A stretch of DNA of 64,000 nucleotides. Source: Pleurocapsa sp. FMAR1. GTDB taxonomy: Bacteria; Cyanobacteriota; Cyanobacteriia; Cyanobacteriales; Xenococcaceae. The translations under genes were made by a program, and so were the position numbers. Of this stretch, positions 952 through 60,262 are shown in pieces. The notes under the pieces were generated by a model. That model was not told the origin of the DNA. It did not search any database and saw only the letters and a list, made by a program, of their open reading frames with translations. The stretch is taken from NCBI RefSeq assembly GCF_963665995.1, contig NZ_OY762512.1, positions 5,208,001 through 5,272,000 on the forward strand, in the 5' to 3' direction. The first letter of the stretch is position 1, and every line of letters begins with the position of its first letter.

Positions 952-2584
952 TGTTAGAAGTTCAGCCCTTGGATAATTCTGGTTTATTACAACATTTACT
1001 GCCTGATTTTTTTGTCTCAAGATAACATCTTGGTCAATCAGTGAAACAGAAAATAAATTAACGATACAAGTTAAAACTCAGAGCATACAGGCAGTTTGTC
1101 CGATTTGTAATTCAATAAGCGATCGCGTCCATAGTAATTATCAGCGATCGCTATTAGATGTATCTTGGGGGAACTATCAAGTCTGTTTGAAGCTTTCAAC
1201 CCGAAAATTATTTTGTTCAAACTCAAATTGTGAGCGTCGAATTTTCACACAGAGATTACCCAAAATAGCAGCACCTTGGGCAAGACGAACAGAGCGATTG
1301 AATATTCAACTTATTAAAGTAGGTTTAGCACAGGGAGGATTACCAGGGTCACGTTTGACTCAACACTTAGGAGTAAAAATTAGCCGTCAAACCCTACTCA
1401 GGTTAGTAATGAAAATGCCATTACCATCTCACCCTGTCCCAAAAATCTTAGGAGTTGATGACTGGGCTTATCGTAAACGCCACACCTACGGTACTATTTT
1501 GGTAGATTTGGAAACTCGTCAGCCAATAGACTTGTTATCTGACCGCACAGCTACAACTTTAGCCGAATGGCTACAAGAGCATCCTGGGGTTGAAATCATC
1601 TCCAAAGATAGAGCCAAAGCTTATAAAGAAGGAGCGTCAAGAGGATGTCCAGAAGCCATTCAAATAGCAGACCGCTTCCACTTACTACAAAATTTAGCTC
1701 AAATGTTAGAAGTAGTGTTGAATCAACACCGAACATTACTGAAGAATGTGGAAGATGAGACCAATAATTGTCCGATTATTGAAGATCAAAAAGTTGCTCA
1801 ACCAATTAGCTCGAACCAAAAGCTCTCAAACTTGCCGTAAGAACGGAAGCCAGTTGAAGGTTATGGAGGAAAAGCAATTGCTCACCACTTAGGGATTGGC
1901 AAAAACTGTTTTTCGTTAACATCCTGAAAGAGGACGAAGTGATAAAGGACGAGGAAGTTTCTCCTTACAAAAAGTATCTTCAGTCAATGGAATTCTGGTT
2001 TTCACGATTCAGAAACTTTATGCTGAAATTAAATTACATTATGAAGGAAGCTATGTCACTTTAGCTCGAAAAGTCTGCGTGAAGCACAGGGCAAGAGAAA
2101 AACTTAATAAACCATTACCGATAGTGTTTGAACCGAAAAAATCGCTGATGACTGTACGTCAGTATGGCTAATTCTACGTCATAGCATCAACCAAAACAAA
2201 GCCGAAACGGAAGCCATTGAATTATTGAAAAAACAACATCCAGATCTTAATACGGGAATTTCTTTAGCAATGGATTTTGCCGATTTAGTTCGTCGAAAAG
2301 CGGTGCGACCCCGCGTCGCCGACAGGCGCAAGGGAACGCGCACCAAGAAACAAAATAAATTAACGGAATGGTTGAAAAACGCCGAGGAAAGTAAGATAAG
2401 AGCCATTAGTGGTTTTGCGAACAAACTAAAAGATGATTTAGATGCAGTCACAAATGGAGTGACTTATCAATGGAGCAATGGGCAAGTAGAAGGACAAGTT
2501 AATCGACTCAAGATGTTAAAAAGGCAAATGTATGGACGTGCCAGTCACGAACTACTCAAGAAAAGATTTTTGTGTCCTGTCTAG
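952..2584 (+). pseudogene. ISL3-family transposase, fragmented and carrying an in-frame 48-bp repeat insertion
   Basis: The N-terminal frame starts at 952 (MLEVQPLDNSGLLQHLLPDF) and breaks within about 25 codons. A central frame at 1187-1840 carries the zinc-finger region and the DDE core (GVDDWAYRKRHTYGTI, then ISKDRAKAY, then QIADRFHLLQNL). The C-terminal frame at 2225-2584 carries the final acidic motif region (WSNGQVEGQVNRLK). At least two frameshifts separate the parts. At 2300-2347 a GC-rich 48-bp mosaic repeat adds 16 codons (AVRPRVADRRKGTRTK) without changing frame, between RRK and KQNK. The protein cannot be made as one piece. Confidence 0.85.
2300..2347 (+). repeat. Mosaic hairpin repeat, minimal 48-bp copy
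   Basis: GC-rich insert in the transposase reading frame after an A-run. It starts GCGGTGCGACCCC and ends GCGCACCAAG, so GGTGCG and CGCACC form the closing stem. Inside is GCGTCGCCGACAGGCGCAAG, a shared core found again at 13660-13684 and 23128-23152 in the opposite orientation. Confidence 0.8.
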
Positions 2585-2633
2585 TAGGCTAGCGATCGCT
2601 AGTTCTTGAGTTCACCAAAAGTGTGCAAGACCC

Positions 2634-3300
2634 TATTTACTGTGACACTGCCAATAATTTGATTTTGCGTATCGCTTCCAGAAGCTACATCAAAAGCAAT
2701 AATTTTCTCATTAGTCGTTGCAAATAATCTTGTTCCATCACTGTTTAGAGCTAATTGACGAATAGCACCTGAACTAGGGATATTAAGATTTGAATGAGTA
2801 TGATAATCCTTGGAGTCGGGATCGATATTTAAAATATAAATAGTTCCAGTATTACGATCTCCTATGTAGGCATATCGGTCATCAGAACTGATAACAATTG
2901 AAGATGGAGTCGCTCCTGCACCAAGATTAATTGGGTTTATTCCCGATGTTTCAAGATTAGTATCTAAATTACGAAATCCAATGCCATCCACTACGGCGAC
3001 TGAATGAGTTTTTTCCAGAGGAACATAAATACGAGAAGCATCACTCGTAGCTGCTAGTTCTTTTGGTAAATCAGGTTGCGTCGGATCGCCAATAGGAACT
3101 TTGGCTAGAATTAGGTCTGAACTACCAACAGCCGAGTTGTTAATAGTAGCTTTGGGATCTGAAGTGTCAATAAAATAAATTTCATCAGAAAGACGTTGTA
3201 CCGTGACAGCTCTTTCAATATTTTCGTCAATATTTAGAGAAATATTACGGCTAGATAGCTCTCCCTTCGATATATTAAATCTTATCCACAATAGAAGCAT
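2634..3300 (-). pseudogene. Beta-propeller C-terminal segment of the giant surface-protein pseudogene, truncated by ISL3
   Basis: The translated segment has YVTN-type propeller repeats (SSIVISSDDRYAYIGDRNTG, then RQLALNSDGTRLFATTNE). The upstream frame that ends at 3275 (cadherin-like repeat, AVSDASIVDKI) connects here by a frameshift around 3275-3300. The downstream end runs into the ISL3 inverted repeat at 2633, so the last residues before the stop come from the insertion sequence. It is probably a secreted domain of the same large protein as the next fragments. Confidence 0.7.
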
Positions 3301-12328: not shown

Positions 12329-12372
12329 AAGAGGATTTTATAAACAATTTTAGTCAAACTACTATTTTTTGC

Positions 12373-12606: not shown

Positions 12607-12956
12607 GGTTTTTTGAGGGGTTTGGGGAGTTTTCGTGCCTTAATTATACGGTAATCTCGATTGTAGAAACTTACTTTCCAACCTCTCCTTCAATCTCGTA
12701 TACCTCTGCTGCTGCTTGACCTGCTTTACGGCGATCGCAATAGCCTTTTGTGAACCTACAATCAACGCTAGTTTCTTAGCTCTAGTAAGACCAGTGTAAA
12801 ACAGATTACGAGAAAGCATAACGTAGTGCTGAGTATAAAGGGGTAAAATAACTACGGGATATTCCGAACCTTGACTTTTATAAATACTCGTCGCCCCAGC
12901 GAGAGTAATTTCATTCAAATCGGCATAGTCATAAACTACATCACGACCGTCACGAT

Positions 12957-13064
12957 GAGGCGCGTTCCTTTGCGCCGTAAAACGACGTGGTGAGACACTT
13001 GCGTTGCGGCACATGCGGAAGTGCGCCTTTGTATGACCCGTTGCGGGGGTTTCCCCCGTTGAGG
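12957..13064 (-). repeat. Mosaic hairpin repeat in recD2, 3-prime part (split from 14092-14158 by IS630)
   Basis: GC-rich block joining the recD2 C-terminal fragment to the IS630 left end. It contains the palindrome AACGGGGG/CCCCCGTT-like unit at about 13040-13061 and an ACATGC...TTTGT module at 13011-13032. Its outer end on the recD2 side is GAGGCG at 12957-12962, complementary to CGCCTC at 14153-14158 at the other outer end. Confidence 0.75.
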
Positions 13065-13071
13065 TATAGCA

Positions 13072-14023
13072 TTACGCGAAGACATTAGGACATTGCGCGA
13101 AAGCAGAATCAACACACTCTCGGATAGTTTCAAAATCGTAAATTCTTTGTTTCATCCAAGTTTTGAGAACCGACCACCAACGCTCTATTTTGTTTAAATC
13201 AGGGGAATACGGGGGCAAATACCAAATTTCACATCCTGCATGATGAACGATTTCAAGAATGCTTTGTCCTTTGTGAAAGGTTGCATTGTCAATCACGATA
13301 ATGTCGCCAGACTTCAATTGAGGAAGCAAACTTTTTTCTAACCAAGTCTCAAATACTTGACGATTACAACATCCCTCATATGTCAACGGTGCAAAAACTT
13401 TTCCTGATTTTAACGCTGCAATCCAACTAACCCTGTCTACTCTTCGACCCGATTTTAATCCATAACATCTTGTTCCTTTCGGGCTATATCCGTATGGATA
13501 ATCGTCTCGATTGTCGAATCCTGCTTCATCTACATAGACGATTTTGCTTCGATCTATTTGACCGATACGTTCAAGAAATTGTTGCCTTTTTTCTTCATTT
13601 CTCTCTCGATACCCATAAGTTTGTCTTGGTCAGCGTACATGCGGGCAAGCCCTTTGTCTTGCGCCTGTCGGCGACGCGGGGTCTGACCGCTTTTTTTCTA
13701 GTTATGCCCAGCTTTCTTATCGCATCGCTGACATTTTGCTGAGTTAGATTCTTCCCCCATAATTGAGCTATTCGTTGCTGTGTTTTGTTGTTGTGTTGCA
13801 ACACAAATTCTTGAAAACGCAGGAGGTTTTTAATCTTGGGCTTTTTTCCTTTTTGATGAAGAGCGATCGCTTTGAAGTCACCCTGAACTTGTTCTCTTTT
13901 GAGCCACAAGTTCAGTGTGTTACGACTGATAGCGAACATTCGGCATACATTGACTTTCTTCTCGCCACTTTTTACTGCTTTAATTGCCTTCGCTCGCAAA
14001 TCGTAACTGTAAGGGGATGCCAT
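13072..14023 (-). pseudogene. IS630-family transposase interrupted by a mosaic repeat
   Basis: The N-terminal part (14023 to about 13692) has the helix-turn-helix (SGEKKVNVCRMFAISRNTLN) and the linker up to LGITRKK. A roughly 69-bp GC-rich repeat at 13623-13691 then shifts the frame. The rest, TYGYRERNEEKRQQFLERIG and on, resumes in another frame and reaches the DDE core: VYVDEAGFDNRDDYPYGYSP, IVIDNATFHKGQ and LPPYSPDLNKIERWW, ending at 13072. Without the repeat the frame would be whole, so the repeat is what inactivated it. Confidence 0.85.
13623..13691 (-). repeat. Mosaic hairpin repeat inside the IS630 transposase
   Basis: Read on the minus strand it begins GCGGTCAGACCCCGCGTCGCC after a seven-A run and ends GCTGACCAAGACAA. 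The closing stem is GGTCAG/CTGACC, different from the copy at 2300 but again complementary. An internal ACATGC-type module (13638-13658) has the stem GGGC/GCCC. Confidence 0.8.
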
Positions 14024-14091
14024 TAATCCTATTCTCTTTCGTTTCTTGATTTATTCAGTATAGCGTCCTAACCTTATAACGTATTGCTATA

Positions 14092-14158
14092 CCTGCGGGG
14101 GGCACCCCTTGGTTGTCGAGGGCGAGCAAAATGTTGAACCATGCGCGGGGGTCGCCTC
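14092..14158 (-). repeat. Mosaic hairpin repeat in recD2, 5-prime part
   Basis: Minus-strand reading leaves the recD2 frame at IDFD, enters GAGGCGACCCCCGCGCATGG, and then contains CTCGCCCTCGACAACC and a GGGGTGCCCCCC hairpin up to the IS630 end. It pairs with 12957-13064 as one former insertion. Confidence 0.75.
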
Positions 14159-15720
14159 ATCAAAATCAATCGTGATTTCCTTTTCGGTTTTATCAATCGC
14201 CCTAACTATTCCTAGATCGCCATTAAACACCTCCCTGCTGTAGTCGTTTTTGAGCTGCATTACGCGATCGCTTACTCTCAAAATACTATCTCCTCTGACT
14301 AACTCGGCTTTATCTTCGGCAGGAGGATTGATTAGCTGTTGTAGCACTTTGTTTAAATTACGAGTACCAATTAAACCCTTAGTCATGGGACACAGCACCT
14401 GTACATCGGTAGCAGGGTCAAAACCAGCATGAGGAATGTAATGCTCGATTAGTTCACAAATAGTTTGTACGCCATAGCTTCTGTGCCTCCTGAATGCCAG
14501 AGACAGTCAGATGTAGCTTTCATGCTAATTGGTTCGAGTTTGGGTATCTGACCGTGATTGATTTGATGGGCGGTACGAATAATCGCACTTTCTGCTGCCT
14601 GACGAAATACTTGAGTCAGACGCACGACGGGGATTTTCTCTGAGGCAATTAGGTCTTTGAGAACATTTCCAGGTCTCACAGAGGGTAACTGATCGATATC
14701 TCCTACCATCAGCAGTAAACAATCTTTAGGTATGGCTTTGAGCAGAGAATGAGCCATGAATAAATCGACTATGCTAGATTCATCTACTACAATCGCACTG
14801 CAATTAAGCTGATTATCCAAGTCTCGTTTAAAGCCCATCTTGCTTGGGTCAAATTCCAACAGACGATGCAGGGTTTTTGCCTCAATTAACTGTTCTTCAG
14901 TTATCATTTCTTTAAGTATTGCAGCGATCGCTTCTTCTTTTGCTTTATATTCTTCAGTGGTCAGTAACTCCTTGGTAAAAGGTACGATCTTAGATTCGGG
15001 TAGATAACAATGTCCGTCTTCACTGGCTTTATCTAGAACATGAAGCACTCCCGCCCGATAGCGAAACTTAGACCAGGGTGATACTTCTACATTGACTGCA
15101 ATGCGATCGGCAGTTAAAAACCCAATCCCAAAGATATCTATTGCTAGCTGGTATGGATTTGTTGTTACCGTCGAGATCGCACTATCACCATACTGTTTGT
15201 ATATCTTCACGGCATAGGTAGTAAATACCCCGTGTCCTGAAAGAAAAATCATTACTTCTTTAATTGATTTCTGTTCCTCCCAAGTGCTAGAAATCATAGT
15301 GATTCGTTTTTTAGCTATCCCTGGCACTTCCGAGAGGCGATAAATTTGGTTTTCGATGATCTCTAAAGTATCCAGCCCAAAATGCTTGACGATGAGTTTA
15401 GCAGTAACAGGTCCTACTCCTTTAATCAAACCACTGCCTAAATATTTCTCAATTCCCGTCAGCGTCGCTGGTTTAGTCTCTTGATACTGAACAACCTGAA
15501 ACTGCGAACCATACTGAAGGTGTTCTATGCAAATTCCCTGTAGCTGTAGCGTCTGTCCTGCTTGGATGTTGGCAAAGCTACCTACTACCGCAATTAACTG
15601 TTTGACATTACCCGTGTTCAACCGCGCAATAGTATAACCCGACTCTTCGGAGTGAAACGTAATTCGCTCAATAACTCCAGTCAGTGATGATAGCTGTGTT
15701 GTCGCAATTGATGAGGTCAT

Positions 15721-16953: not shown

Positions 16954-17455
16954 GCGGTGCGACCCCCGCGCATGGTTCAACACCCGTTAGCATTCCCTTG
17001 CGCCAGCCGCAAAATGCGGCTCGACGTTGCTTCTTGCTCAATAAGCTCAACGGGTCGCAGACCCGCAACGCTTTTTCGCGCACGCGGGGTCTTGACTCAG
17101 TTTGCTCGCCCTCGACAACCAAGGGGTACCCCCCGCAGGTACCTCGCCCTCGACAGTTCCAGAAGACGCGGGGAACCCGCGCAACGGACTCACCTGCGGA
17201 CGAAGCGTCCTTGGTCGCAACGGGGGAGACCCCCGCAACGGTTTTGCGAGACAGCCTTGCAGGAACGGCGGCTTTTGAGTGAGAAGCTTCCCACTCAAAA
17301 CGCGCCTTGGCTTTCCCTCCGCAGACGAACGAAGGACTTGTACGCACGTACTTGTACGCACGTACTGTCGAGGGTGTCTCGCAACGGAGGGAACCTCCGC
17401 AACGCAACTGTCTCACCGCGTCTTTTTAAGACGAATCGCGAACCCTCACCAAGAC
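16954..17455 (+). repeat. Composite mosaic hairpin repeat, 0.5 kb, at the IS1 frameshift site
   Basis: It starts GCGGTGCGACCCCCGCGC directly after a run of A and ends CCTCACCAAGACA, giving GGTG/CACC at the ends. Inside are many hairpins, such as GCGGACGAAGCGTCC, AACGGGGGAGACCCCCG, TCTTTTTAAGACG and repeats of ACTTGTACGCACGTAC (17336-17367). Long overlapping open frames on both strands are by-products of its GC content, not genes. Confidence 0.8.
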
Positions 17456-17715
17456 AGGGAAATTAACCATTCAGGGCGATGAAATGTGGTCATTTGTAGC
17501 CAACAAAGACAATAAACAATGGATTTGGCTAGCTCTAGATGCAAAAACCAAAGAGATTGTTGGGGTTCAGGTCGGCGATCGCAGTAGAGAAGAAGCCAGA
17601 GAACTCTGGCAGTCACTCCCAGGAATATATCGTCAATGTGCAGTTCGCGAAGAGTGATTTCTGGGAAGCGTATGAACAAGTAATACCCTCGAAGCATCAT
17701 AAAGCTGTAGGCAAA

Positions 17716-17807
17716 GCGGATGCGACCCCGCGTCGACGCAAGGCACAAGCGTCCGACACGAGGGCATCTCTAGACGGGAAGCCACGCGGACTTGGGAATG
17801 CGCACCA
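17716..17807 (+). repeat. Mosaic hairpin repeat in the IS1 transposase 3-prime part
   Basis: It begins GCGGATGCGACCCCGCGTC after GGCAAA and ends AATGCGCACCAATA. Comparison with the clean IS1 copy (AVGKERKTN) places it between GGCAAA and AGAAAC. The core differs from other copies (GTCGACGCAAGGCACAAGC), so it is a diverged or recombined member. Confidence 0.7.
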
Positions 17808-18091
17808 ATAAGAAACAGGTAAAACAATTATGTTGAGAGATTCAACTGCACTTGGGAGACAAAGAGTGTCTCGTCTGGTCAGGCAAACGCTATCATTCTC
17901 CAAAAAAACGGAAAATCAGATTAGGGCAATTTGGGGGGAGGAAATGGCTCTGTTTAAGAGCCATATTCCACTGGCCCGTTGGTATTTCATCCACCACTAC
18001 AATGCATCTTTACCTCTTTAGGACTACCAAAACTTTATTACCGCAGTAAATCTTTTATGGATTTATTAATTTTAGGTAATGAATTATTTTA

Positions 18092-20711: not shown

Positions 20712-21060
20712 ATTAACTCTATACTCGGATGAGCAAATAGTTAAACAGTTTATCAAAAAAAAACTAATCTCAAAGCTTTTTGATACGACGAGCGATAGTC
20801 TTTCCCAAGTAGTGCGATCGCTTTGTTTTATCAGTAGGTGTTCTGGGTCTTGATGCGCGTACATGCGGCAAAGCGCCTTTGTCTTGCGCCTGACGGCGGA
20901 TGGCACTATTCGTGCCATCGTCCTGCTTCGCAGGACTTTGCTTGCTTCGCAAGCTGTGGGTCGCATCGCTTTTCCTGGTATCCAATTAAGAGGGTAGGGT
21001 TCGGTCATGGCTATCCGCGAATTAATTATATCCGTCCACGATGATACACTCTTTCTCTAT
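20712..21060 (-). pseudogene. Unidentified gene remnant carrying a mosaic repeat
   Basis: On the minus strand, either side of the repeat at 20848-20969, the frame reads MTEPYPLNWIPGK and then DPEHLLIKQSDRTTWERLSL, VVSKSF. Without the repeat the two parts join as ...IPGKDPEHLL... The family is not known to me. The rest of the stretch has no other coding signal. Confidence 0.35.
20848..20969 (-). repeat. Mosaic hairpin repeat with three consecutive hairpins
   Basis: Minus strand: starts GCGATGCGACCC after GGAAAA and ends GCGCATCAAGAC. The closing stem is GATGCG/CGCATC. On the plus strand it holds TGGCAC/GTGCCA (20901-20917), GTCCTGC/GCAGGAC (20920-20936) and GCTTGC/GCAAGC (20940-20954), plus an ACATGC-type module at 20861-20882. 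The same order, with different stem bases, recurs at 24744-24842. Confidence 0.8.
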
Positions 21061-21079
21061 AGGTATCAAAACAAGCGTT

Positions 21080-22062
21080 CAGACCCCCGCGCATGGTTCG
21101 TGCCTTTGCTTATGCCAGGGAACCTTTTCGACACTTTGCTCGCCCTCGACAACCAAGGGGTACCCCCCGCAACGGTTTTGCGAAACAGCCTTGCAGGAGG
21201 GTTTCCCTCCGCAGAGGACTGTTGAGGGTGTCTCGCAACGGGTCATAGACGAGGCGTGTTTTGCGAGACAGTCCGTTGGCGGGGTTCCCCCGAGGCGTGT
21301 TTCCCAAAAACTGCCGTCCGCAACGCAAGTGTCTCACCACCGCAACTGCTTCACCGCGTCGCCGTCAGAGCTAGAAACGGATGGCGGCTTTTGAGTAAGA
21401 ATACTCTTACTCAACCTCGACAGTTTGCTCGCCCTGACAGTTCCTTCAACGCGGGCAACCCGCGCAACGGACTTGTCCTTTCTCGCAACGGGGGTTCCCC
21501 CCCGCGCATGGTTCAGCAGTTTCGCAGGGCGGGGTACCGCCCAAGTCGCGTCTAGCGACAGGCTCTGGAGAGCCTCGCCTAACGGGAGGAAAGTCGGCAC
21601 GTTCCAACGTGCGCTGCTTTGCAGCCTGCAGCGGGGGAACCCCGCCACCCTCAGCAATAGCGCTACTCGGAGGGAACCTCCGCAACGCTTTGCTTCGCAA
21701 CGAACTGCTTCACCGCAACGCAACTGTCTCGCAACGGGCGAGTGGAATATGCTCTCGCGGACGCTTCGTCCGCCGCCGTTGCAAAGCAAAGCGTTGCGGC
21801 TCGATAGAGCCTGAGAGCATCGGGAAGCATTCCCTTGCGCCCTACGGCGACGCTTTAGGGGGTCTTCCCTCATTTCCTCGCCCCAAAACGCGCCTTCTCT
21901 GTTCAAGAGCCTGTCTTGAGACAGTTGTTCATGGGGGAAACCCCCGCCCTCGACAGTTCCTTCAACGCGGGAAACCCGCGCAACGGACTCACCTGCGGAC
22001 GAAGCGTCCTTGGTCGCAAGACCACACTGTCTCGCTGTTCCACACCCGAAGTTCAAGGGAAT
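21080..22062. repeat. Composite mosaic hairpin repeat, about 1 kb
   Basis: It starts in CAGACCCCCGCGCATGGTTC and ends in CACCCGAAGTTCAAGGGAATG. Made of tens of short hairpins: GGGTTCCCCC types, GCGGACGCTTCGTCCGC, GGCTCT-GG-AGAGCC at 21561-21574, GACAGTT/AACTGTC borders and others. About 150 bp (21474-21646) are almost the same as 24440-24604. Many long open frames in all six phases occur here only because stops are rare in GC-rich DNA. The protein-like phrases recur in unrelated frames, so none is called a gene. Confidence 0.8.
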
Positions 22063-22073
22063 GCTGAACAAGA

Positions 22074-22345
22074 AAGGGTCAATCTTTGGTAGTAGAACCA
22101 TTTTCTAGAGCAGCTTTTACTTTCCTGACAGTATGAACTGAAACTCCAAATTTTGATGCTGTTTGACTCGATGATATTTCTCAAACTCCTTCACCTGTTG
22201 CCATAACCGATCAAGAATCAAAATAATTCTAGTCTTAGAACCTTTGTCAAAGACAGTGCATTTACCGCCATCGCCGTGTTTCTTAAAGTCATCCCAAGTC
22301 AAACCAATTACCTCACTAACCCTTAGTCCACAGCCGTACACAAGA
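22074..22345 (-). pseudogene. Tyrosine recombinase fragment fused to an HTH remnant
   Basis: The frame 22345-22117 reads LLLSLVYGCGLRVSEVIGLT, WDDFKKHGDGGKCTVF and KGSKTRIILILDRLWQQVKE, including the first catalytic Arg of XerC/D-type integrases (GLRVSE). The rest of the catalytic domain (HxxR and Tyr) is missing. After a frame change near 22180 it continues SSSQTASKFGVSVHTVRKVK and AALENGSTTKD, a helix-turn-helix-like end. Two different remnants appear joined. Both types are common on cyanobacterial plasmids. Confidence 0.55.
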
Positions 22346-23024: not shown

Positions 23025-23110
23025 AGAGGGATACTTTTAAAGTGAAGGTAGTGAAGCAATAGCTTAATTGATAATTGAAGCATTTCGTCGCACTTGGAAT
23101 AACACAAAGT

Positions 23111-23160
23111 GTCTTGGCAAGCGTTCCCTTGCGCCTGTCGGCGATGCGGGGTCTTGCTGC
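23111..23160 (-). repeat. Mosaic hairpin repeat, 50-bp copy
   Basis: Minus strand: GCAGCAAGACCCCGCATCGC ... GCTTGCCAAGAC. The closing stem is GCAAG/CTTGC. The core is the same as at 2300-2347 apart from the stem. Inserted after an A-run in the transposase. Confidence 0.8.
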
Positions 23161-23428
23161 TTTTTCTTTTTAAACGAGCCAAACAATGTCTTAGTCTGGT
23201 GTTCTCACCCTCAACACGAGTCATGTAGGTTTTGAGAACTAAATGAGCGCAATCGTTGATTAAACAAGGATAAACTAGCCATCCGTCGGTAACATAGAAA
23301 AAAGATTTCCCACCTTTAATTATTTGCCATAGAGGTTTAAATGTTTGGACAGAGCGAGAGCCTAGTACCCAAGCTAAGATTCCAGGTGAAAAATGGTTGA
23401 CGACTGTCCACAACCATCGTTTATTTTG

Positions 23429-23478
23429 TCTTGGTGCGCGTTCGCGATTCGTCTTAAAAAGACGCGGGGTCGCACCGC
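23429..23478 (-). repeat. Mosaic hairpin repeat, 50-bp copy with TTTTT-loop hairpin
   Basis: Minus strand: GCGGTGCGACCCCGCGTC, then a TCTT-TTTA-AGA hairpin, then GCGAACGCGCACCAAGA. Closing stem GGTGCG/CGCACC. Preceded by a five-A run. Confidence 0.8.
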
Positions 23479-25690: not shown

Positions 25691-26050
25691 ACCGCAACTG
25701 CTTCACCGCAACGGGTCGCAGACCCGCAACGGCTATATGCGGAAGTGCGCCTTTGTTGGAAGCGATGGCTCATGGGAGGAAGGCGTGAGCCGCACCTGAC
25801 CCCCACCGCGAGAGTGGAATAGCGCTTGGGTCTGTTGCGGGGGTTCCCCCCGTTGAAGAACTGAACCAAGACAGCCCTTGAACTCAGGGCACCCGTTAGC
25901 ATTCCCTTGCGCAGTAGCGGCGACGCGGGGTCTTCTCTCATTTCCGTGCAGCAAAGACCGCCTCGCTTCGCTCTTCGCGCTTGCCCGCATGTATCGCGTT
26001 GTTGAAACAAAGGACTTGTCCGCATGTACTGTCGAACCATGGGCGGGGGT
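25691..26050. repeat. Composite mosaic hairpin repeat
   Basis: Joins the intron fragment to the next transposase remnant. Includes AACGGGTCGCAGACCCGCAA, GCGGGGGTTCCCCCCG (25838-25855), an ATATGC-type variant at 25735-25756 and an inverted ACATGC module at 26007-26027, ending in ATGGGCGGGGGTCGCTCG. Confidence 0.7.
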
Positions 26051-30136: not shown

Positions 30137-30139
30137 GAT

Positions 30140-32579: not shown

Positions 32580-33073
32580 TGAAGCATTGTAGTAATGTTA
32601 CAATTTCAAATAGCACCAATATAATTTTCTAGCAATTTTGAAAACGATAAAGTGTCTTGGCGAGCATTCCCTTGCGCCGACGCGGGCAGATGCGGACAAG
32701 TCCTTTCTCGCTGCTCTCCGTACCAAACGTGACACTCTTTGTCTTAACGTACGGTTGAATCGTTCAATATAGCTCGTTTGACTTTCTTGTTGAAACAGTC
32801 GCTCATGGAAGTTTCCCCCATGAGCGACTGTTTCGCTTTGACCACTGCCCGATGCCGTTTGTTAGATATTATTATTCCATAAGCTGCCCAAAAATTGGTG
32901 TGGGCAACTGCACACTGTCGATACACGCTTTGGTAAAGATGACCACAATTCTCTGGCTGCCTGTTCGTCGCGATCGCCAACGCGAGAGTCGAATAAGCCG
33001 AGGAAACCTCGGCATTTCGGTAGTGAAACAAAAATCTGTGGGGAGAGTCTAAAGACATTAGTAATCAAACCCT
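32580..33073 (-). pseudogene. IS1-family transposase remnant with mosaic insertions
   Basis: Minus strand phrases: LALAIATNRQPENCGHLYQS-like out of phase (true IS1 phase GDRDEQAARELWSSLPK), VYRQCAVAHTNFWAAYGIII, SNKRHRAVVK, RAILNDSTVR. These correspond to InsB. Interruptions: a hairpin of GAAACAGTCGCTCATGG and its complement at about 32787-32836, a repeat at 32654-32706 ending GCTCGCCAAGACAC, and another hairpin at about 32979-33020 (GCCGAGG/CCTCGGC). No complete frame remains. Confidence 0.7.
32654..32706 (-). repeat. Mosaic hairpin repeat, truncated at its 5-prime end
   Basis: Minus strand: AAAGGACTTGTCCGCATC, TGCCCGCGTCGGCGCAAGGG, AATGCTCGCCAAGACA. The usual starting stem with ACCCC is missing and the ACATGC-type module forms the start instead. 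Inserted between CGAG and CTTTATCG of the IS1 frame. Confidence 0.65.
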
Positions 33074-33078
33074 CGAAG

Positions 33079-49715: not shown

Positions 49716-49732
49716 ACTAGCTTCTTTTAATT

Positions 49733-50110
49733 TTAAACAAAAGAATTATCGGCGCTCGCGACAAAAGAGTCGTGGTCTGACCATGTATTCATAAAGTCAT
49801 TGTATTCAACAACTGATGAGCAGCCATTAGGAGTTCCACTGTCATTCAGAATAATGTCCACCGAGCCATCAAATTCGTAGTTAATACCAGTTACCCAAAC
49901 AGCATGATCCGCGTCTTTTTGCTCTAAGCTATTACCGTACTGGTCATATTGAGGCTGCCAAATTTTATTACCATCTAGCCCAACGATGGGTTTATCTCCC
50001 ATTGACAAAGCATCTTGCAAAGTAGCAAAAGAGGTATTATATGACCTATATGTTTCAATTGCCAGACTTTTAAGGCTTTGTAAAGTAGTAGAACTATAAG
50101 TTAAATCCAT
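49733..50110 (-). CDS. C39-peptidase-like small protein lacking the catalytic Cys (copy 1)
   Basis: 125 residues. A good GGGAG ribosome site precedes ATG 50110. Recognisable are TSFATLQDALSMGDKPIVGL, ADHAVWVTGINYEFDGSVDI, ILNDSGTPNG and VEYNDFMNTWSDHDSF: the second half of a C39/papain-like fold with the catalytic His (in HAVWVTG) and the Asn/Asp (NDSG). The Cys-bearing first helix is absent, so it is probably not an active protease. Placed convergently between TpsA copies, which suggests an accessory or immunity-like role; not proven. Confidence 0.6.
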   Translation of the reverse strand: MDLTYSSTTLQSLKSLAIETYRSYNTSFATLQDALSMGDKPIVGLDGNKIWQPQYDQYGNSLEQKDADHAVWVTGINYEFDGSVDIILNDSGTPNGCSSVVEYNDFMNTWSDHDSFVASADNSFV

Positions 50111-50321
50111 CGATCTCGCTCCCTTAATAAGTTATTCGATTAAGCTTCGATCTTGGAATAAAACTAATAGTTAGGGATTACATTGCCCTTTTAGGAGAAT
50201 TGCCAATGCTTTTGCTTTGCTGGATAAATTTTGACAAAGACTTGACACGCTCGCCTAAAAAACTAGAGGATTTAGTAAAACTATTAAAAACGGCATCAAA
50301 AAAATTCTGGAGATGTGGCAG

Positions 50322-53300: not shown

Positions 53301-54137
53301 GCTGACGGAAGCAGAATTAATGCTATTACTTTTGGTCAAGGTAATGCTGGAAAACTAGAAATTAAGGCAAATTCTCTCAATCTAGATAATAATGCATTTA
53401 TTTCAAGTGTTAGCGAAACTAATTTTGATGCAGGAGATATTACTCTTAATATAGCCAATTCTATACAAGCAACAGATAGCTCAATCTCTACTAGTTCAAC
53501 CCAATCTTCAGGGGGTAATTTAACTATTAATGCAGGAGACATAAAGCTTCGAGGCAACAGCGATCTCACTACCGATATTGCTTCTGGGCAAGGCAGTGGC
53601 GGAAATATCAATATAACTGCTGATTCGGTTATTGCTTTTGACGACAGCGATATCTTTGCTTCTGCACCAGAAGGACAAGGAGGCAATGTTACCTTAGATA
53701 CTCCTGCTTATTTTGGAGAAAACTTTACTCTCAATTCTTTAACTGCTAATCCCGATACTCTAGACAATAACTCTCGCGCTGATGTCAACGCTACAGGTGC
53801 AGTATCATCTGGTACAGTTTCTATTCCTAATGTGAGTTTTATTCAAAACAGTCTTAATGATTTACCAAATAACTCGATTAATACCGATGAATTAGTCGCA
53901 AATAGTTGCGTTGTGCCAGTAGGTGATAGAAGCCAGGGTAAATTTATTATTACTGGGACTGAAAGCTTACCAGTACGTCCTGGAGATAATCTACCTTCTA
54001 AATATCCGACAGGAGAAGTACGGAATGTACCTGAAAAGCCAAGTGGTTGGCAACCAGGCGACCCTATTATTGAACCCCAAGGGGCTTATCGTTTAGCCAA
54101 TGGCAAGTTAGTGTTGAGTCGCCAGTGTTCCCGATAA
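50322..54137 (+). CDS. TpsA-type filamentous haemagglutinin, copy 2
   Basis: 1,271 residues from ATG 50322; GGAG at 50309 gives proper spacing, while the ATG at 50313 touches it. Signal peptide (SLLFYSLVVSGILIFKCERA), then the TPS secretion domain (NLFHSFQEFNVDAGRGAYFA, LINPNGIIFGQGASLDVQ). The long passenger is a beta-helix made of roughly 125-residue repeats (GDTGNISITADNSVSLDTSS, VGDAGKIEITTGSLSATNGS, FTRGRGNAGDITIQ) encoded by 375-bp near-identical DNA units. The C-terminal domain (NSCVVPVGDRSQGKFIITGT, EPQGAYRLANGKLVLSRQ) has a Cys pair. Exported by a TpsB protein; likely a surface adhesin. The only TpsB gene in the window is frameshifted. Confidence 0.9.
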   Translation: MRSLLFYSLVVSGILIFKCERAFSQITPDNTLGAESSVVNTRDATSESIDGGAVRGQNLFHSFQEFNVDAGRGAYFANPDAVTNIFSRVTGGNPSNILGTLGVDGAANLFLINPNGIIFGQGASLDVQGSFTATTADGVEFGEQGFFSAVNPESPKLLTINPSAYFFNQLSPGAIANNSIGLRVPDGQNLLLLGGDVNVDGGGIVASGGRIDLGAIAGQGVIGLNSNGSLNIPDSIARGDVSLTNGAAFLVYGDGGGDIAIAAKNINILSRSNLNAGVFSNSSLPDAQAGDITIDATDNIIVDNGRVANEVSLEAVGNAGDIFINANSLQVLNGSLIESLTSGQGDSGNVTVRASNIELAGTSSDGQLSSSLFTNIGSQAQGNGGNLTINTDNLSLSDRAEISASTFGQGDTGNISITADNSISLDASSYILNNVQSIDAVGDAGKIEITTGSLSATNGSQIDSFTRGRGNAGNISITADNSVSLDTSSYILNNVESSDAVGNAGKIEITTGSLSATNGSQIDSATRGRGNAGDITIQASNAVTFDGFDNNGFPSASFSSVEAGSEGDGGNINIQTGNLVARNGGQINAGTLGKGDTGNISITADNSVSLDTSSSIVNNVQGIDAVGDAGKIEITTGSLSATNGSQIDSFTRGRGNAGDITIQARNAVTFDGFDNNGLPSASFSSVEAGSEGDGGNINIQTRNLVVRNGGEINASTLGKGDTGNIFITADNSISLDVGSRIVNNVQGIDAVGDAGKIEITTGSLSATNGSQIDSFTRGRGNAGNITIQARNDVIFDGLDNNGLATGSFSSVEAGGKGDGGDINIQTGNLVVRNGGQIIAGTSGKGDTGNIFITADNSISLDASSYIFNNVESIDAVGDAGKIEINTGSLLATNGSQIDSFTRGQGNAGNITIQASNDVTFDGFGNNGLFSAAFSSVEAGGKGDGGNINLTARSLSLTNGGKLDVGVRQASASLPSGRGKGGNINIDVDDALTIADGSRINAITFGQGNAGKLEIKANSLNLDNNAFISSVSETNFDAGDITLNIANSIQATDSSISTSSTQSSGGNLTINAGDIKLRGNSDLTTDIASGQGSGGNINITADSVIAFDDSDIFASAPEGQGGNVTLDTPAYFGENFTLNSLTANPDTLDNNSRADVNATGAVSSGTVSIPNVSFIQNSLNDLPNNSINTDELVANSCVVPVGDRSQGKFIITGTESLPVRPGDNLPSKYPTGEVRNVPEKPSGWQPGDPIIEPQGAYRLANGKLVLSRQCSR

Positions 54138-54154
54138 ACTAGCTTCTTTTAATT

Positions 54155-54532
54155 TTAAACAAAAGAATTATCGGCGCTCGCGACAAAAGAGTCGTGGTCT
54201 GACCATGTATTCATAAAGTCATTGTATTCAACAACTGATGAGCAGCCATTAGGAGTTCCACTGTCATTCAGAATAATGTCCACCGAGCCATCAAATTCGT
54301 AGTTAATACCAGTTACCCAAACAGCATGATCCGCGTCTTTTTGCTCTAAGCTATTACCGTACTGGTCATATTGAGGCTGCCAAATTTTATTACCATCTAG
54401 CCCAACGATGGGTTTATCTCCCATTGACAAAGCATCTTGCAAAGTAGCAAAAGAGGTATTATATGACCTATATGTTTCAATTGCCAGACTTTTAAGGCTT
54501 TGTAAAGTAGTAGAACTATAAGTTAAATCCAT
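54155..54532 (-). CDS. C39-peptidase-like small protein lacking the catalytic Cys (copy 2)
   Basis: Identical in sequence to the gene at 49733-50110, being part of the tandem unit. The same ribosome site, His and Asn/Asp motifs are present and the Cys half is again missing, so the truncation predates the duplication. The flanking tpsA genes face towards and away from it as in copy 1. Confidence 0.6.
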   Translation of the reverse strand: MDLTYSSTTLQSLKSLAIETYRSYNTSFATLQDALSMGDKPIVGLDGNKIWQPQYDQYGNSLEQKDADHAVWVTGINYEFDGSVDIILNDSGTPNGCSSVVEYNDFMNTWSDHDSFVASADNSFV

Positions 54533-54743
54533 CGATCTCGCTCCCTTAATAAGTTATTCGATTAAGCTTCGATCTTGGAATAAAACTAATAGTTAGGGAT
54601 TACATTGCCCTTTTAGGAGAATTGCCAATGCTTTTGCTTTGCTGGATAAATTTTGACAAAGACTTGACACGCTCGCCTAAAAAACTAGAGGATTTAGTAA
54701 AACTATTAAAAACGGCATCAAAAAAATTCTGGAGATGTGGCAG

Positions 54744-57700
54744 ATGCGATCTCTCTTATTTTATAGTCTTGTAGTTAGTGGAATATTAATCTTTAAATGC
54801 GAGCGCGCCTTTTCCCAGATTACCCCCGACAATACTTTAGGTGCTGAAAGTTCGGTAGTTAATACTAGAGATGCTACCAGCGAAAGTATAGATGGTGGTG
54901 CAGTACGGGGACAAAACCTCTTTCACAGTTTCCAAGAGTTTAATGTGGATGCAGGCAGAGGGGCATATTTTGCTAATCCTGATGCTGTAACTAATATCTT
55001 CTCTCGCGTTACAGGGGGAAATCCTTCAAATATCTTAGGTACGTTAGGAGTTGATGGTGCAGCTAATTTGTTTTTGATTAATCCTAATGGCATTATTTTT
55101 GGTCAAGGTGCGAGTTTAGATGTGCAGGGATCTTTTACTGCCACTACTGCCGATGGGGTTGAGTTTGGCGAACAAGGTTTTTTTAGTGCGGTTAATCCAG
55201 AATCACCGAATTTATTAACAATAAATCCGTCTGCTTATTTCTTTAATCAGCTTTCTCCAGGTGCGATCGCTAATAATTCCATTGGATTGAGAGTACCAGA
55301 TGGTCAGAATTTATCACTACTTGGTGGCGATGTTAACGTTGATGGTGGTGTTTTAGTCGCAAGTGGTGGTCGCATCGATATTGCTGCAATAGCAGGACAA
55401 GGTATTGTCGAATTAAATAGCAATGGGAGTTTTAATATTCCCGATAGTATTGCCAGAGGAGATGTCTCGTTAACTAATGGTGCTGGATTTTTTGTTATTG
55501 GAAATGGAGGTGGAGATATTGCGATCGCGGCTAAAAATATTGATATTTTTTCAGGAAGTGGTCTCTATGCTGGTATTTCCAGTAATTCGGGTTTACCTGA
55601 TGCTCAAGCGGGAGATATTACAATTAATGCAACTGACAATATAGCAGTAGATGAAAGCTTTATTCTAAATCAAATACGTTCAGAAGCAGTCGGCAATGCT
55701 GGAGATATTTTCATTAATGCTAATTCTCTTCAAGTTTTCAATGGTAGTCAAATAGCATCTTCTACTTTTGGACAAGGAGATGGCGGAGATGTTACTGTTC
55801 GCGTTTCTAATATAGAATTGGCAGCGACTAGCAGTGATGGACAATTTGCTAGTGGTTTGTTTACTACTGTTCTATCTCAAGCACAAGGTAATGGCGGTAA
55901 TTTAACCATTAACACAGATAATCTAAGTCTGAGCGATCGCGCTAAAATATCAGCTAGTACTTTTGGCAAAGGAGATGCTGGGGATATTTCCATTACCGCC
56001 GATAATTCAATCACTCTCGATACTAGCTCATATATTTTCAACAATGTAGAGAGGAGTGAGACGGTGGGCGATGCTGGCAAAATTGAGATTAATACTGGTT
56101 CACTTTCGGTAACCAATGGTAGTCAAATTGATTCCTTTACTCGCGGACAGGGTAATGCAGGAAATATAACTATTCAAGCAAGAAATGCCGTTACTTTTGA
56201 TGGAAGTGCTTCATTTAGTAGTGTCGAAGCAGGTGCTATAGGTGATGGTGGCGATATTAATATTCAAACAGGAAATTTAGTTGCAAGAAACGGTGGAACA
56301 ATTGCTGCTAGTACTTTAGGCAAAGGAGATACGGGTAATCTTTCCATTACCGCCGATAATTCAATCACTCTCGATACTAGCTCATATATTTTCAACAATG
56401 TAGAGAGGAGTGAGACGGTGGGCGATGCTGGCAAAATTGAGATTAATACTGGTTCACTTTCGGTAACCAATGGTAGTCAAATTGATTCCTTTACTCGCGG
56501 ACAGGGTAATGCAGGAAATATAACTATTCAAGCAAGAAATGCCGTTACTTTTGATGGAAGTGCTTTACTTAGTAGTGTCGAAGCAGGTGCTATAGGTGAT
56601 GGTGGCAATATAACTATCAAAGCGGGTTCTTTATCTTTAACTAATGGAGGACTAAACGTTGGCGTTCGTCAGGCTTCAGACTCCCTTCCAAGTGGCAAAG
56701 GTGATGGTGGCAATATCAACATTCAAACAGGAAATTTAGTTGCAAGAAACGGTGGAACAATTGCTGCTAGTACTTTTGGCAAAGGAGATACGGGGAATCT
56801 TTCCATTACAGCCGATAATTCAATTACTCTCGATACTAGTTCATATATTTTCAACAACGTTGAGAGTATTGACGCGGTGGGCGATGCAGGTAAAATTGAG
56901 ATTAATACTGGTTCTCTTTCGGTAACCAATGGTAGTCAAATTGATTCCTTTACTCGCGGACAGGGTAATGCGGGAGATATAACTATTCAAGCCTCAAATG
57001 CCGTTACTTTTGATGGATTCGATAATAATGGATTGCTTAGTGCTTCAGCTAGTAGTGTCGAAGCAGGTGGCAAAGGCGACGGTGGCGATATAACTATCAA
57101 AGCGGGTTCTTTATCTCTAACTAATGGAGGACTAGACGTTGGCGTTCGTCAGGCTTCAGACTCCCTTCCAAGTGGCAAAGGCGACGGTGGCGATATCAAC
57201 ATTCAAACAGGAAATTTAGTTGCAAGAAACGGTGGAACAATTGCTGCTAGTACTTTAGGCAAAGGAAATTCAGGTAATCTTTCCATTACCGCCGATAATT
57301 CAATTTCTCTCGATACTAGTTCATCTATTCTCAACAATGTCGGGAGTGGTGATGCGGTTGGCAATGCTGGTCAAATCGAGATTACGACTGGTTCGCTGTC
57401 GGTGGCTAATGGCTCTCAAATTAATTCCTTGACTCGCGGACGGGGTGATGCTGGAGATATAACTATTCAAGCAAGAAATGACGTTACTTTTGATGGATTA
57501 GAGAATAATGGATTACGCAGTGCTTCATTTAGTAGTGTGGAAGCTGGTGGCAAAGGCGACGGTGGCGATATAACTATCAAAGCGGGTTCTTTATCTCTAA
57601 CTAATGGAGGACTATTAGACGTTAGAGTTCGTCAGGCTTCAGACTCCCTTCCAAGTGGCAGAGGTGAAGGTGGCGATATTAATATTCAAACAGGAAATTT

Positions 57701-58541
57701 AGTTGCAAGAAACGGTGGAACAATTGCTGCTAGTACTTTTGGTCAAGGGAATGCTGGAAAACTAGAAATTAAGGCAAATTCTCTCAATCTAGATAATAAT
57801 GCATTTATTTCAAGTGTTAGCGAAACTAATTTTGATGCAGGAGATATTACTCTCAATATAGCCAATTCTATACAAGCAACAGATAGCTCAATCTCTACTA
57901 GTTCAACCCAATCTTCAGGGGGTAATTTAACTATTAATGCAGGGGACATAAAGCTTCGAGGCAACAGCGATCTCACTAGCGATATTGCTTCTGGGCAAGG
58001 TAGTGGCGGAAATATCAATATAACTGCTGATTCGGTTATTGCTTTTGACGATAGCGATATCTTTGCTTCTGCACCAGAAGGAAAAGGAGGCAATATTACC
58101 TTAAATACTCCTGCTTACTTTGGGGAGAACTTTACTCTCAATTCTCTAACTGCCGATCCTAGTACTCTAGACAATAACTCTCGCGCTGATGTCAATGCGA
58201 CAGGAGCAGTATCGGGTTCGGTTGCTATTCCCGATGTGAGTTTTATTCAAAACAGTCTTAATGATTTACCAAATAACTCGATTAATACCGATGAATTAGT
58301 GGCTAATAGTTGCGTTGTGCCAGTAGGTAATAGAAGCCAGGGTAAATTTATTATTACTGGGACTGAAAGCTTACCAGTACGTCCTGGAGATAATCTACCT
58401 TTTAAATATCCGACAGGAGAAGTGCGGAATGTACCTGAAAAGCCAACTGGTTGGCAACCAGGCAACCCTATTATTGAACCCCAAGGGGCTTATCGTTTAG
58501 CTAATGGCAAGTTAGTGTTGAGTCGCCAGTGTTCCCGATAA
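54744..58541 (+). CDS. TpsA-type filamentous haemagglutinin, copy 3
   Basis: 1,265 residues, same start logic as copy 2. The N-terminal TPS domain is almost identical to copy 2 (LINPNGIIFGQGASLDVQ). The passenger differs in the number and order of repeats. It has extra blocks of the type AGSLSLTNGGLDVGVRQASD and SLPSGKGDGGDINIQTGNLV, and lacks others. The C-terminal domain differs by a few residues (GNRSQGKFIITGT). Divergence lies mainly in the repeats, which fits slippage or recombination between 375-bp units. A surface adhesin, presumably exported by a TpsB partner. Confidence 0.9.
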   Translation: MRSLLFYSLVVSGILIFKCERAFSQITPDNTLGAESSVVNTRDATSESIDGGAVRGQNLFHSFQEFNVDAGRGAYFANPDAVTNIFSRVTGGNPSNILGTLGVDGAANLFLINPNGIIFGQGASLDVQGSFTATTADGVEFGEQGFFSAVNPESPNLLTINPSAYFFNQLSPGAIANNSIGLRVPDGQNLSLLGGDVNVDGGVLVASGGRIDIAAIAGQGIVELNSNGSFNIPDSIARGDVSLTNGAGFFVIGNGGGDIAIAAKNIDIFSGSGLYAGISSNSGLPDAQAGDITINATDNIAVDESFILNQIRSEAVGNAGDIFINANSLQVFNGSQIASSTFGQGDGGDVTVRVSNIELAATSSDGQFASGLFTTVLSQAQGNGGNLTINTDNLSLSDRAKISASTFGKGDAGDISITADNSITLDTSSYIFNNVERSETVGDAGKIEINTGSLSVTNGSQIDSFTRGQGNAGNITIQARNAVTFDGSASFSSVEAGAIGDGGDINIQTGNLVARNGGTIAASTLGKGDTGNLSITADNSITLDTSSYIFNNVERSETVGDAGKIEINTGSLSVTNGSQIDSFTRGQGNAGNITIQARNAVTFDGSALLSSVEAGAIGDGGNITIKAGSLSLTNGGLNVGVRQASDSLPSGKGDGGNINIQTGNLVARNGGTIAASTFGKGDTGNLSITADNSITLDTSSYIFNNVESIDAVGDAGKIEINTGSLSVTNGSQIDSFTRGQGNAGDITIQASNAVTFDGFDNNGLLSASASSVEAGGKGDGGDITIKAGSLSLTNGGLDVGVRQASDSLPSGKGDGGDINIQTGNLVARNGGTIAASTLGKGNSGNLSITADNSISLDTSSSILNNVGSGDAVGNAGQIEITTGSLSVANGSQINSLTRGRGDAGDITIQARNDVTFDGLENNGLRSASFSSVEAGGKGDGGDITIKAGSLSLTNGGLLDVRVRQASDSLPSGRGEGGDINIQTGNLVARNGGTIAASTFGQGNAGKLEIKANSLNLDNNAFISSVSETNFDAGDITLNIANSIQATDSSISTSSTQSSGGNLTINAGDIKLRGNSDLTSDIASGQGSGGNINITADSVIAFDDSDIFASAPEGKGGNITLNTPAYFGENFTLNSLTADPSTLDNNSRADVNATGAVSGSVAIPDVSFIQNSLNDLPNNSINTDELVANSCVVPVGNRSQGKFIITGTESLPVRPGDNLPFKYPTGEVRNVPEKPTGWQPGNPIIEPQGAYRLANGKLVLSRQCSR

Positions 58542-58562
58542 ACTAACTTCTTTTAATTTTAA

Positions 58563-58686: not shown

Positions 58687-58876
58687 TATTTAAATAGAGT
58701 AAATGCTTAAAGGCGATCGCTATTTGGCAGAAAACTGCAAGATTGCCTAAAGCTATAAATATAGAGGAAGCAGGTCAAACAATTTGTATTATTCTTTACA
58801 TTGGGATTTTTTTAAATAAAGCATTCACTTTTTGTGGGCTTGAGCGTTCTGCTTCGCTTTTTAAAAATACATATTG

Positions 58877-59658: not shown

Positions 59659-59808
59659 TAAAAATTGATAACCACTGTGGCATTTTTCTGCCAGCTTCAA
59701 GGAATAAAACAGCAAGTGATTACACAGAAAAGGTAGTTTATTCATCTTTTTAGATTAGGTAAATTGTAATTAACAAACGAATCGCCTATTTAATGAAGGG
59801 GCAAGAAG

Positions 59809-60051
59809 ATGTTAAATAAACTACAAATTCATTCTTTAGTTACATCAGTTTTATTACTACCCACGTTAGTTCTTACTGCCCAAAAAGCAGATGCCCATCC
59901 ACTAGATTTTATTTCCACTAATTTAACTAATTATCCTATTTACGAATTGTATGTATCTTCTGGTAATACGGACAATTGGTAAAAAGTCGTTTTAGCGAAA
60001 GATGTACTGCCTAGTAACTAGTCAAGCCAGATTGATTTTCAGGGGTTTTAA
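59809..60051 (+). pseudogene. Small secreted protein with in-frame stops
   Basis: Starts MLNKLQIHSLVTSVLLLPTL, a signal peptide ending ADAHPLDF. Then NLTNYPIYELYVSSGNTDNW is followed by TAA (59980-59982), but the frame continues KVVLAKDVLPSN, TAG (60019-60021), SSQIDFQGF, TAA (60049-60051). Similar proteins I recall continue after NW through DVLPS and IDFQG-type strands without stops. Decay by several point mutations in one frame. Confidence 0.7.
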
Positions 60052-60136
60052 CGTCCAAAGTCTAACCAACCCATTTTTATTACCTTTGTGATTTACGAAT
60101 GACTACAATTCATCACATGGGGGCGTTAATTTGCCT

Positions 60137-60262
60137 GTCTTGGTGCGCGTACATGCGGCTAAAGCCTTTGTCTTGCGCCTTACGTCGACGCGGTGAGTCC
60201 AGTCCTGCGGACGGGTTTCCCTCCGCAGGGAACTGGCGAACCATGCGCGGGGGTCGCAACGC
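60137..60262 (-). repeat. Mosaic hairpin repeat outside any transposase
   Basis: Minus strand: GCGTTGCGACCCCCGCGCAT after seven A, ... GGCGCAAGACAAAGGCTTTA, ... GCGCACCAAGACAG. The closing stem is weaker (TTGCG/CGCAC, with a G-T pair). Contains the ACATGC-type module at 60151-60171 with GGCT/AGCC stem. It lies 80 bp upstream of the histidine kinase start. Confidence 0.75.

Follow-up and report, generated by a model that had tools for sequence, protein, structure and literature searches.

Covarying stems, fixed internal loops and precise insertion in very small hairpin repeats of Pleurocapsa sp. FMAR1 and other cyanobacteria

How do very small hairpin repeats spread in bacteria? To our knowledge the question is still open. 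It is raised by a stretch of 64,000 nucleotides from the cyanobacterium Pleurocapsa sp. FMAR1 (positions 5208001 to 5272000 of a genome in one contig of 5,429,540 bases; hereafter the window), in which a preliminary description had pointed out mobile hairpin repeats whose closing arms differ from copy to copy but keep pairing. We analysed one family of these repeats, called H1, together with its sister families. Since the ends are now defined to the base, with empty sites to compare and hundreds of copies available, the question of spread becomes testable. The copies cited by that description are present with the arms it gave (at 2300, 13623, 20848, 23429 and 12957/14158; Table 1), and the flanks are as it said, an A-run and GC before and AAGAC after. 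Its pair GCAAG/CTTGC at 23111 holds for the five core base pairs, but the outer position is mismatched, and its list missed other copies, e.g. the GTTCAG/CTGAAC composite at 21075.

An alignment of 13 short copies from the Pleurocapsa genome reads NAGC-[arm6]-ACCC-C-[5-bp stem, 7-nt loop]-AAGGGAAYG-[arm6']-AAGAC, and a covariance model, R1, was built from it. R1 matched this genome 147 times at E<=1, and 121 of the matches were read (122 were tried, one lying beyond the fetched stretches; the other 25 comprise 16 IS630 repeats plus 9 weak rows). The H1 unit itself is 51 nt long: GC-[arm6]-ACCC-C-[stem-loop]-AAGGGAAYG-[arm6']-AAGA(C/G)A. Because CCC and GGG within the core are able to pair, the element forms one long hairpin, in which two fixed internal loops lie between two variable stems; when 12 copies were folded as single sequences, most but not all gave this shape. 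The constancy of the loop is clear from the 87 arm pairs bearing the H1 flank and tail, 75 of which open on ACCC, versus just 6, 3 and 2 such ACCC arm pairs in controls with three permuted tails. The core is also present with quite different arms and flanks. Where H1 reads GC..AAGA(C/G)A, the sister families read GA..GAT (H2/H7), GTCGAG..CTCGACTT (H3), TTCGAG..CTCGAA (H4) and CGAGCG..CGCGAG (H5, with only 3 contiguous base pairs, GCG/CGC), while H6 has TAGC after its right arm and is located inside another core. The insert lengths of H1, H2/H7 and H3 (51, 48 and 45 nt) and that of a 69-nt long form of H1 (13622-13690) are all multiples of three.

Pairing of the arms was scored on copies picked in several genomes with the core and a left-flank AGC as the only criteria, the arms being ignored. 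This gave 141 matches and 111 distinct copies, in which all six arm positions were paired 93 times, five 7 times, four 8 times, three twice and two once. When the partners were shuffled, fully paired copies numbered 26.5 on the average and 38 at most (1000 shuffles), which rules out chance as the source of the pairing. The H1 set contains 14 paired arm sequences, headed by GGTGCG (43 copies), GGTGAG and GGTCAG (14 each) and GTCGAG (6); GGTCGG and GCCGAG (3 each), GGCAAG and GGGCAG (2 each) and six further sequences found once each make up the remainder. The statement that the stems keep pairing is therefore correct for most copies, with exceptions such as GAGAAG/CTAACG (25937-25932), paired at 2 positions out of 6. 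Within the window, four imperfect copies pair at 5/6 by eye (23158, 60260-60255, 16956-16961 and 32651-32722). Of the 11 H1 copies that fall short of five pairs, eight carry another right end further downstream (L206, L243, L253, L272, L275, L284, L304 and L308), which in most of them fits the left arm at 5-6 positions (by eye; the reading of L284 is incomplete): these are nested copies whose core has recombined with that of their host. The other three (L165, L185 and L286) are recombinant or unexplained.

The same behaviour extends beyond H1. When copies of any family were chosen by the core only, 167 of 238 were paired 6/6, with 24 paired arm sequences, where shuffles expect 11.4%. Where GA precedes the arm (56 distinct copies), 32 were at 6/6, 2 at 5/6, 17 at 4/6, 1 at 3/6 and 4 at 2/6, and the sister copies with a GAT tail were fully paired in 17 cases out of 17 (five arm sequences). 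Two other modules also combine constant boxes with alternative paired stems: 41 of 65 are fully paired for M3, and 29 of 51 are paired for the apical stem of M2, versus 13% after shuffling in either case.

Covariation was measured on a gap-free alignment of 87 distinct H1 sequences, in which 97.0% of the pairing cells are paired. Cells with a double change numbered 115, versus 30.8 ± 4.2 in shuffled and 6-16 in slid versions. As a tree-based null, substitutions were re-placed at random on a FastTree tree in 60 simulations; this is a home-made analogue of R-scape and its values are coarse. The six best column pairs (at least 3 apart) were 7-47, 8-46, 9-45, 10-44, 20-30 and 23-30, the last being a slipped register of the inner stem. 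The counts expected per simulated alignment were 0.05 for 7-47 and 8-46, 0.017 for 9-45, and 0 for 10-44 and 20-30; of the five arm pairs that vary, four take third to sixth place among all column pairs. The inner stem thus covaries too, through pair 20-30, whereas pairs 11-43, 17-33 and 18-32 are invariant, and 19-31 hardly varies, so that these four are uninformative. The preliminary description had concluded from compensatory change that a folded form, RNA or single-stranded DNA, was selected or is produced by the mobilising mechanism. This interpretation is supported: arms varying independently or pairing at chance level, which it had named beforehand as the contrary outcome, were sought in this larger set and not found. 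Stems that change their letters yet mostly still pair imply that it is the folded shape, be it of RNA or of single-stranded DNA, that has been conserved. Covariation also distinguishes internal loops and ends, which must be constant, from the two stems, which must only pair.

Empty sites fix the ends of the element. The flanks of 106 distinct H1-type sites (at least five arm pairs) were joined and searched in the fetched DNA. When a tail of 7 was removed, a spanning match was found at 33 sites and the best match was gap-free in 15 of them; with the other tail lengths (3-6 and 8-11), it was gap-free in 0-2 of 27-33. Dinucleotides were read in 24 gap-free cases with an identity of at least 70%, although several empty sites are paralogous or merely 70-80% alike. 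The central dinucleotide was uninformative in 15 (AG in all three sequences). In the six cases where the right-hand one was not AG, the empty site carried the right-hand one five times (AC 3, AA 2) and neither once; in three further cases the right-hand one was AG and the empty site had AT, AA or CG. It is from the gap-free joins at tail 7 and the right-hand dinucleotide in the empty sites that H1 is read as GC..AAGA(C/G)A. A 2-nt target duplication of AG was dropped, since the empty site carries the right-hand dinucleotide: the duplication is of at most 1 nt, and the left-hand A is followed by a G that seems to be part of the element itself. An A precedes GC at 99 of the 106 sites. Near-identical sites thus exist with and without the element, and its mobility, which the preliminary description had asserted, is established by the empty sites. 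By eye, tandem heptamer arrays continue in phase across the insert (L210, L255, L257, L302 and others).

H1 also enters its own kind and genes of other mobile elements. Within another H1 copy, the insertion point is CAAG|GGAA, and empty counterparts of the outer copy were matched (#113, #174, #176 and #185); tandem arrays also occur. The outer arms often still match around other hairpin modules, forming composites with the arms 178 to 753 nt apart (L073, L137, L069 and L053) or 981 nt apart (window 21077-22069). The Pleurocapsa DNA contains 20 distinct left ends whose arm type is known but which lack a close partner; 12 of them have the exact complement plus AAGA downstream and 8 have none; three of these 8 (window 16951, window 60264 and L037) have a 5/6 partner by eye. 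Open frames of at least 150 codons, on either strand, contain 20 of 99 testable copies, a figure without chance control. Three window copies lie in insertion sequence (IS) genes: that at 2300 lies in frame inside an ISL3-type transposase frame (PF01610, E 9e-11), that at 13622 is inside an IS630-type transposase open reading frame (PF01710, E 8e-9) and that at 23110 is in an IS1-type one (PF03400, E 9.5e-12); the first two domain assignments concern the window copy only. In the fetched stretches of the same genome, 17 IS630-type copies with flanks like those of 13622..13690 and 4 ISL3-type copies with flanks like those at 2300 bear H1 inside the transposase frame; H1 therefore did not stop their spread, and sits in genes of IS that still multiplied. 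The intact 441-codon frame of L071, which its motifs suggest to be tnpB-like, carries the element in frame. In-frame H1 copies were seen at L071 2787-2841, L204 4869-4923, L241 1997-2051, L286 4269-4323 and L291 4949-5003, in Okeania-type genomes and the Pleurocapsa genome; by the same motifs, all five host frames presumably resemble tnpB. A count of tnpB motifs in Okeania copies (6/90) used a crude expression and is not relied on.

The family is widespread among relatives. In a sample of 40 genomes including that of FMAR1, R1 matched all 24 others of the same family (5 to 127 matches each) and 4 of 15 more distant ones; order-wide, at E<=1e-6 with stricter filters, the repeats were found in 42 of 195 genomes and 22 of 94 genera. 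Six Okeania-sample genomes gave 490 matches, part of them listed. A pattern search listed at least 115 stretches: the 80 with titles are all cyanobacterial (e.g. Xenococcus, Pleurocapsa, Okeania, Crocosphaera, Hydrocoleum and Baaleninema), and among 35 listed loci without titles one (L276) looks like a chance match. Two loci on viral contigs were matched and read along with the 115 stretches; one of the two (L312) is by its look due to chance. The other, L311 4852-4884, is an H5-type copy on an IMG/VR contig filed as viral, which means that the family can travel on mobile DNA. A comparison of L071 with plasmid records gave one 49-base match.

What moves such a repeat? Constant internal loops and ends, stems that are free but paired, precise insertion and self-nesting fit the recognition of a folded single strand. 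From this we infer, as the reading that has somewhat the better of the case, that these are non-autonomous hairpin insertion elements of 45-51 nt moved in trans as a folded single strand. One strand would fold into a long hairpin. Its foot would be a 6-bp closing stem of free sequence; above this would come an internal loop (A / AAYG) and a CCC/GGG helix, both fixed, then a second loop, which is small (C / AA), and at the apex a 5-bp stem whose sequence is partly free. Acting in trans, an enzyme would recognise the fixed loops and the ends, and would either cut the strand out or copy it; joining would then duplicate at most one base of the target and, in the case of H1, would mostly take place behind an A. 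If movement were restricted to copies that fold, a change in one arm would spread only together with its partner, and selection would operate at the movement step.

Several results weigh against this proposal. No mobiliser was found among the Y1 and RAYT gene counts and loci tested. Within the same family the number of Y1_Tnp genes is unrelated to copy number (rho 0.05, p 0.80, 25 genomes), by which a canonical Y1 transposase as sole driver is rejected; the correlation over all 40 genomes (rho 0.31, p 0.05) is read as reflecting shared kinship. The RAYT count shows a weak positive, non-significant trend within the family (rho 0.37, p 0.07) and none over the 40 genomes (rho 0.11, p 0.50), and two genomes with 100 and 66 copies (G018 and G017) are without a RAYT match at 1e-10; in these comparisons, copy counts above about 130 are lower bounds. 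The element is present in two of the seven Y1 loci of the FMAR1 genome (once within a tnpB-like frame, once in a composite), R1 matched one of 59 further Y1/RAYT loci (29 Y1, 30 RAYT), and at none of these loci does the element occur as a flanking pair. A chromosome strand bias of the lagging-strand type was not found (best two-arc p 0.165 for 120 positions, the origin not being mapped); the set comprised 116 of the 147 R1 rows plus 4 others, leaving out 17 IS630 rows, 3 ISL3 rows, 2 duplicates and 9 weak rows. A search for an autonomous copy up to 5 kb, covering part of each genome, left 16 rows after filtering and revealed no clear case; four spans of 1.6-4.5 kb (L220, L305, L261 and a 3016-nt span in the window) were provisionally taken as separate copies. 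The pairing data themselves are not uniform: 22 of the 56 GA copies pair at four positions or fewer, most of them being H5 with its 3 contiguous base pairs, arm pair 6-48 does not covary although 10 of 87 rows differ there, and inner pair 21-29 is not significant (0.88 expected). Finally, the arms have about as few G.T mismatches (6) as A.C ones (7), which does not point to either strand as the one that folds.

How do these elements compare with known systems? Miniature inverted-repeat transposable elements (MITEs) of the DDE type have constant terminal inverted repeats and a target-site duplication; as the H1 arms vary and its duplication is of at most 1 nt, an ordinary DDE-type MITE was rejected. 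IS200/IS605-type (Y1) elements lack a target duplication and insert 3' of a short motif, and H1 likewise inserts precisely and with no target duplication longer than one base. Rickettsia palindromic elements are hairpin repeats, longer than H1, and share with it in-frame insertion in protein genes. As for the Nostoc repeats SDR1-5, Elhai et al. are said to have described them in Genome Research in 2008 (18:1484) as 21-27 nt long, versus 51/48/45 nt for H1 and its sisters, and we know of no mobiliser for them. Among the titles and abstract openings listed for such repeats, none names the H1 family; novelty falls if the Nostoc SDR work already covers H1 or stem covariation. Rfam 15 gave no match in the window at gathering thresholds, and none at E<=1 for window 2240-2420.

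SDRs are, like H1, very small mobile cyanobacterial repeats with precise insertion (PMC4390886, PMC2884548, PMC3116915), SDR5 inserting between nucleotides 3 and 4 of HIP1 (PMC4390886). Repetitive extragenic palindromic (REP) families comprise sub-families with alternative complementary stem residues (PMC3733652); the earlier contrast with MITEs is fair, but paired stem variation as such is thus not new. REP/REPIN elements (GTAG/CGTC) also resemble H1 in being short hairpins with intragenic in-frame copies (PMC3733652, PMC3116915, PMC6006769) and in their presumed single-strand recognition. H1 and its sisters differ from them by the lack of a GTAG, GTGG or CGTC tag, their feet being GC or GA on the left and, on the right, AAGA(C/G)A, GAT or TAGC, and by constant internal loops and ends and insertion as a single hairpin with defined ends. 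They also differ from REPtrons: RAYT loci are not flanked by H1 and RAYT number shows no significant link, on which grounds a RAYT-driven REP was rejected. Behind a RAYT-like gene at L076 1462-2057 lies an inverted repeat, TAGGGTGGGCAT / ATGCCCACCATA, which may be a REP of the GTAG type and distinct from the hairpin family. The GC42 cluster of yeast mitochondria, a non-autonomous 42-nt palindrome with AG target nucleotides and merging units, is strikingly similar in size and AG target; it differs in being mitochondrial and in the constraint described, which opposes stems to loops (PMC4478555). In H1, moreover, the G following the left A apparently belongs to the element.

A more specific version of the proposal, which as a whole we hold to be unlikely, can be put forward: a single self-contained hairpin some 50 nt long, recognised through its internal loops, would be spliced as a folded single strand, or copied from RNA, into sites that end in A, the same loop in its own kin among them; the enzyme would belong neither to the RAYTs nor to the Y1 transposases borne by IS; and the yeast mitochondrial GC clusters would be a convergent case. 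If true, cyanobacteria would have a means of moving DNA that has not been described so far.

A mobile form made of RNA, the hairpin being transcribed and then reverse-transcribed into new places, appears unlikely. It would agree with the size class, palindrome and AG target shared with GC42, for which RNA-mediated copying is suspected (PMC4478555), and with the U.G pairs that 30 of 87 rows have at columns 20-30, but this wobble can also be read as the slipped register, C23-G30. A serious rival, though on balance we would bet against it a little more readily, is template switching during replication, left out of account by the preliminary description, which copies one arm onto the other and would produce paired changes by mutation bias without any selection of the fold. 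Such switching is said to yield multibase compensatory changes in RNA genes (PMC8794818), the arms are close together in simple copies, and the copies paired at 5/6 (7 of 111) are what one expects of intermediates. Alone, it leaves the fixed sequence of the internal loop unexplained. Copies at the same site also count against it: in 58 non-independent pairs, whose flanks diverge by 12.6% on the average, 10 of 696 arm positions differ (1.4%). Eight of these differences, all found in three copies, affect one side only, and the sole paired change lies between nested copies that are maybe separate insertions. At the other core positions of these copies, 25 of 1624 differ (1.5%). The two loop-tip bases of same-site clusters (L372-L461 and others) change far more quickly than the flanks, differing in 49 of 116 cases (42%) versus 12.6%. 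For 90 Okeania copies from 90 loci, taken from the upper part of the R1-ranked list and thus favouring GGTGCG, the differences are 6.5% in the arms, 6.8% in the rest of the core and 56% at the loop tip; set against the same-site figures, they indicate that some same-site copies may be separate insertions.

That arms and most of the core differ so much less than the flanks at the same site would also suit hairpins kept in place for a role in host mRNA (stability, termination or attenuation), their pairing merely reflecting this role. We consider it very improbable, given the copies within long open frames on either strand, several of them in transposase genes, the tandem arrays and copies inside each other, and the near-identical sites with and without the element. 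Least credible of all is the idea that one core repeatedly entered different pre-existing hairpins, so that the arms are those of the hosts and did not co-evolve: the sister families do have a common core with other arms, first bases and tails, but H1 alone, chosen by one flank, has its 14 paired arm sequences, and the ACCC loop accompanies the H1 flank and tail in 75 of 87 pairs.

Table 1. Hairpin repeats and composites of the window (positions counted from its first base)
Feature	Position	Strand	Arms and remarks
H1 element, 51 nt	2300..2350	+	GGTGCG 2302-2307 / CGCACC 2339-2344; tail AAGAAA
Composite, 1.2 kb	12954..14161	-	closed by GATGAGGCG / CGCCTCATC, a 9-bp arm lengthened from GAGGCG 12957-12962 / CGCCTC 14153-14158; encloses IS630-type copy with the 13622-13690 element
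H1 long form, 69 nt	13622..13690	-	GGTCAG 13688-13683 / CTGACC 13633-13628
H1 composite, nested modules inside	16954..17456	+	GGTGCG 16956-16961 / CTCACC 17445-17450; 5/6, by eye
H1-like copy, longer interior	17708..17814	+	GGATGCG / CGCACC; one bulged base
H1 composite around nested hairpin modules	20846..20969	-	GATGCG 20967-20962 / CGCATC 20857-20852
H1 composite	21075..22075	+	GTTCAG 21077-21082 / CTGAAC 22064-22069; 981 nt of nested modules between arms
Sister family H2/H7 copy	21816..21879	-	GA-GGGAAG..CTTCCC-GAT
H1 element	23110..23160	-	AGCAAG 23158-23153 / CTTGCC 23121-23116; 5/6 paired
H1 element, different inner hairpin GCGTCTTTTTAAGACG	23427..23478	-	GGTGCG 23476-23471 / CGCACC 23438-23433
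H2/H7-type left half	25894..25937	-	GA-GAGAAG (25937-25932); right side CTAACG unpaired, 2/6; probably a recombined copy
H1-like copy	32651..32722	-	AGCGAG / CTCGCC; 5/6 by eye; other hairpin module beside left arm
H1 composite	60136..60262	-	GTTGCG 60260-60255 / CGCACC 60147-60142; 5/6, by eye

The 12954-14161 composite interrupts a gene labelled recD2 by the preliminary description, and the frame across its low-coordinate end has a stop. Elsewhere in the window, 45602-58541 contains large open frames with many internal repeats, spaced by 375-480 nt and by about 4.4 kb.

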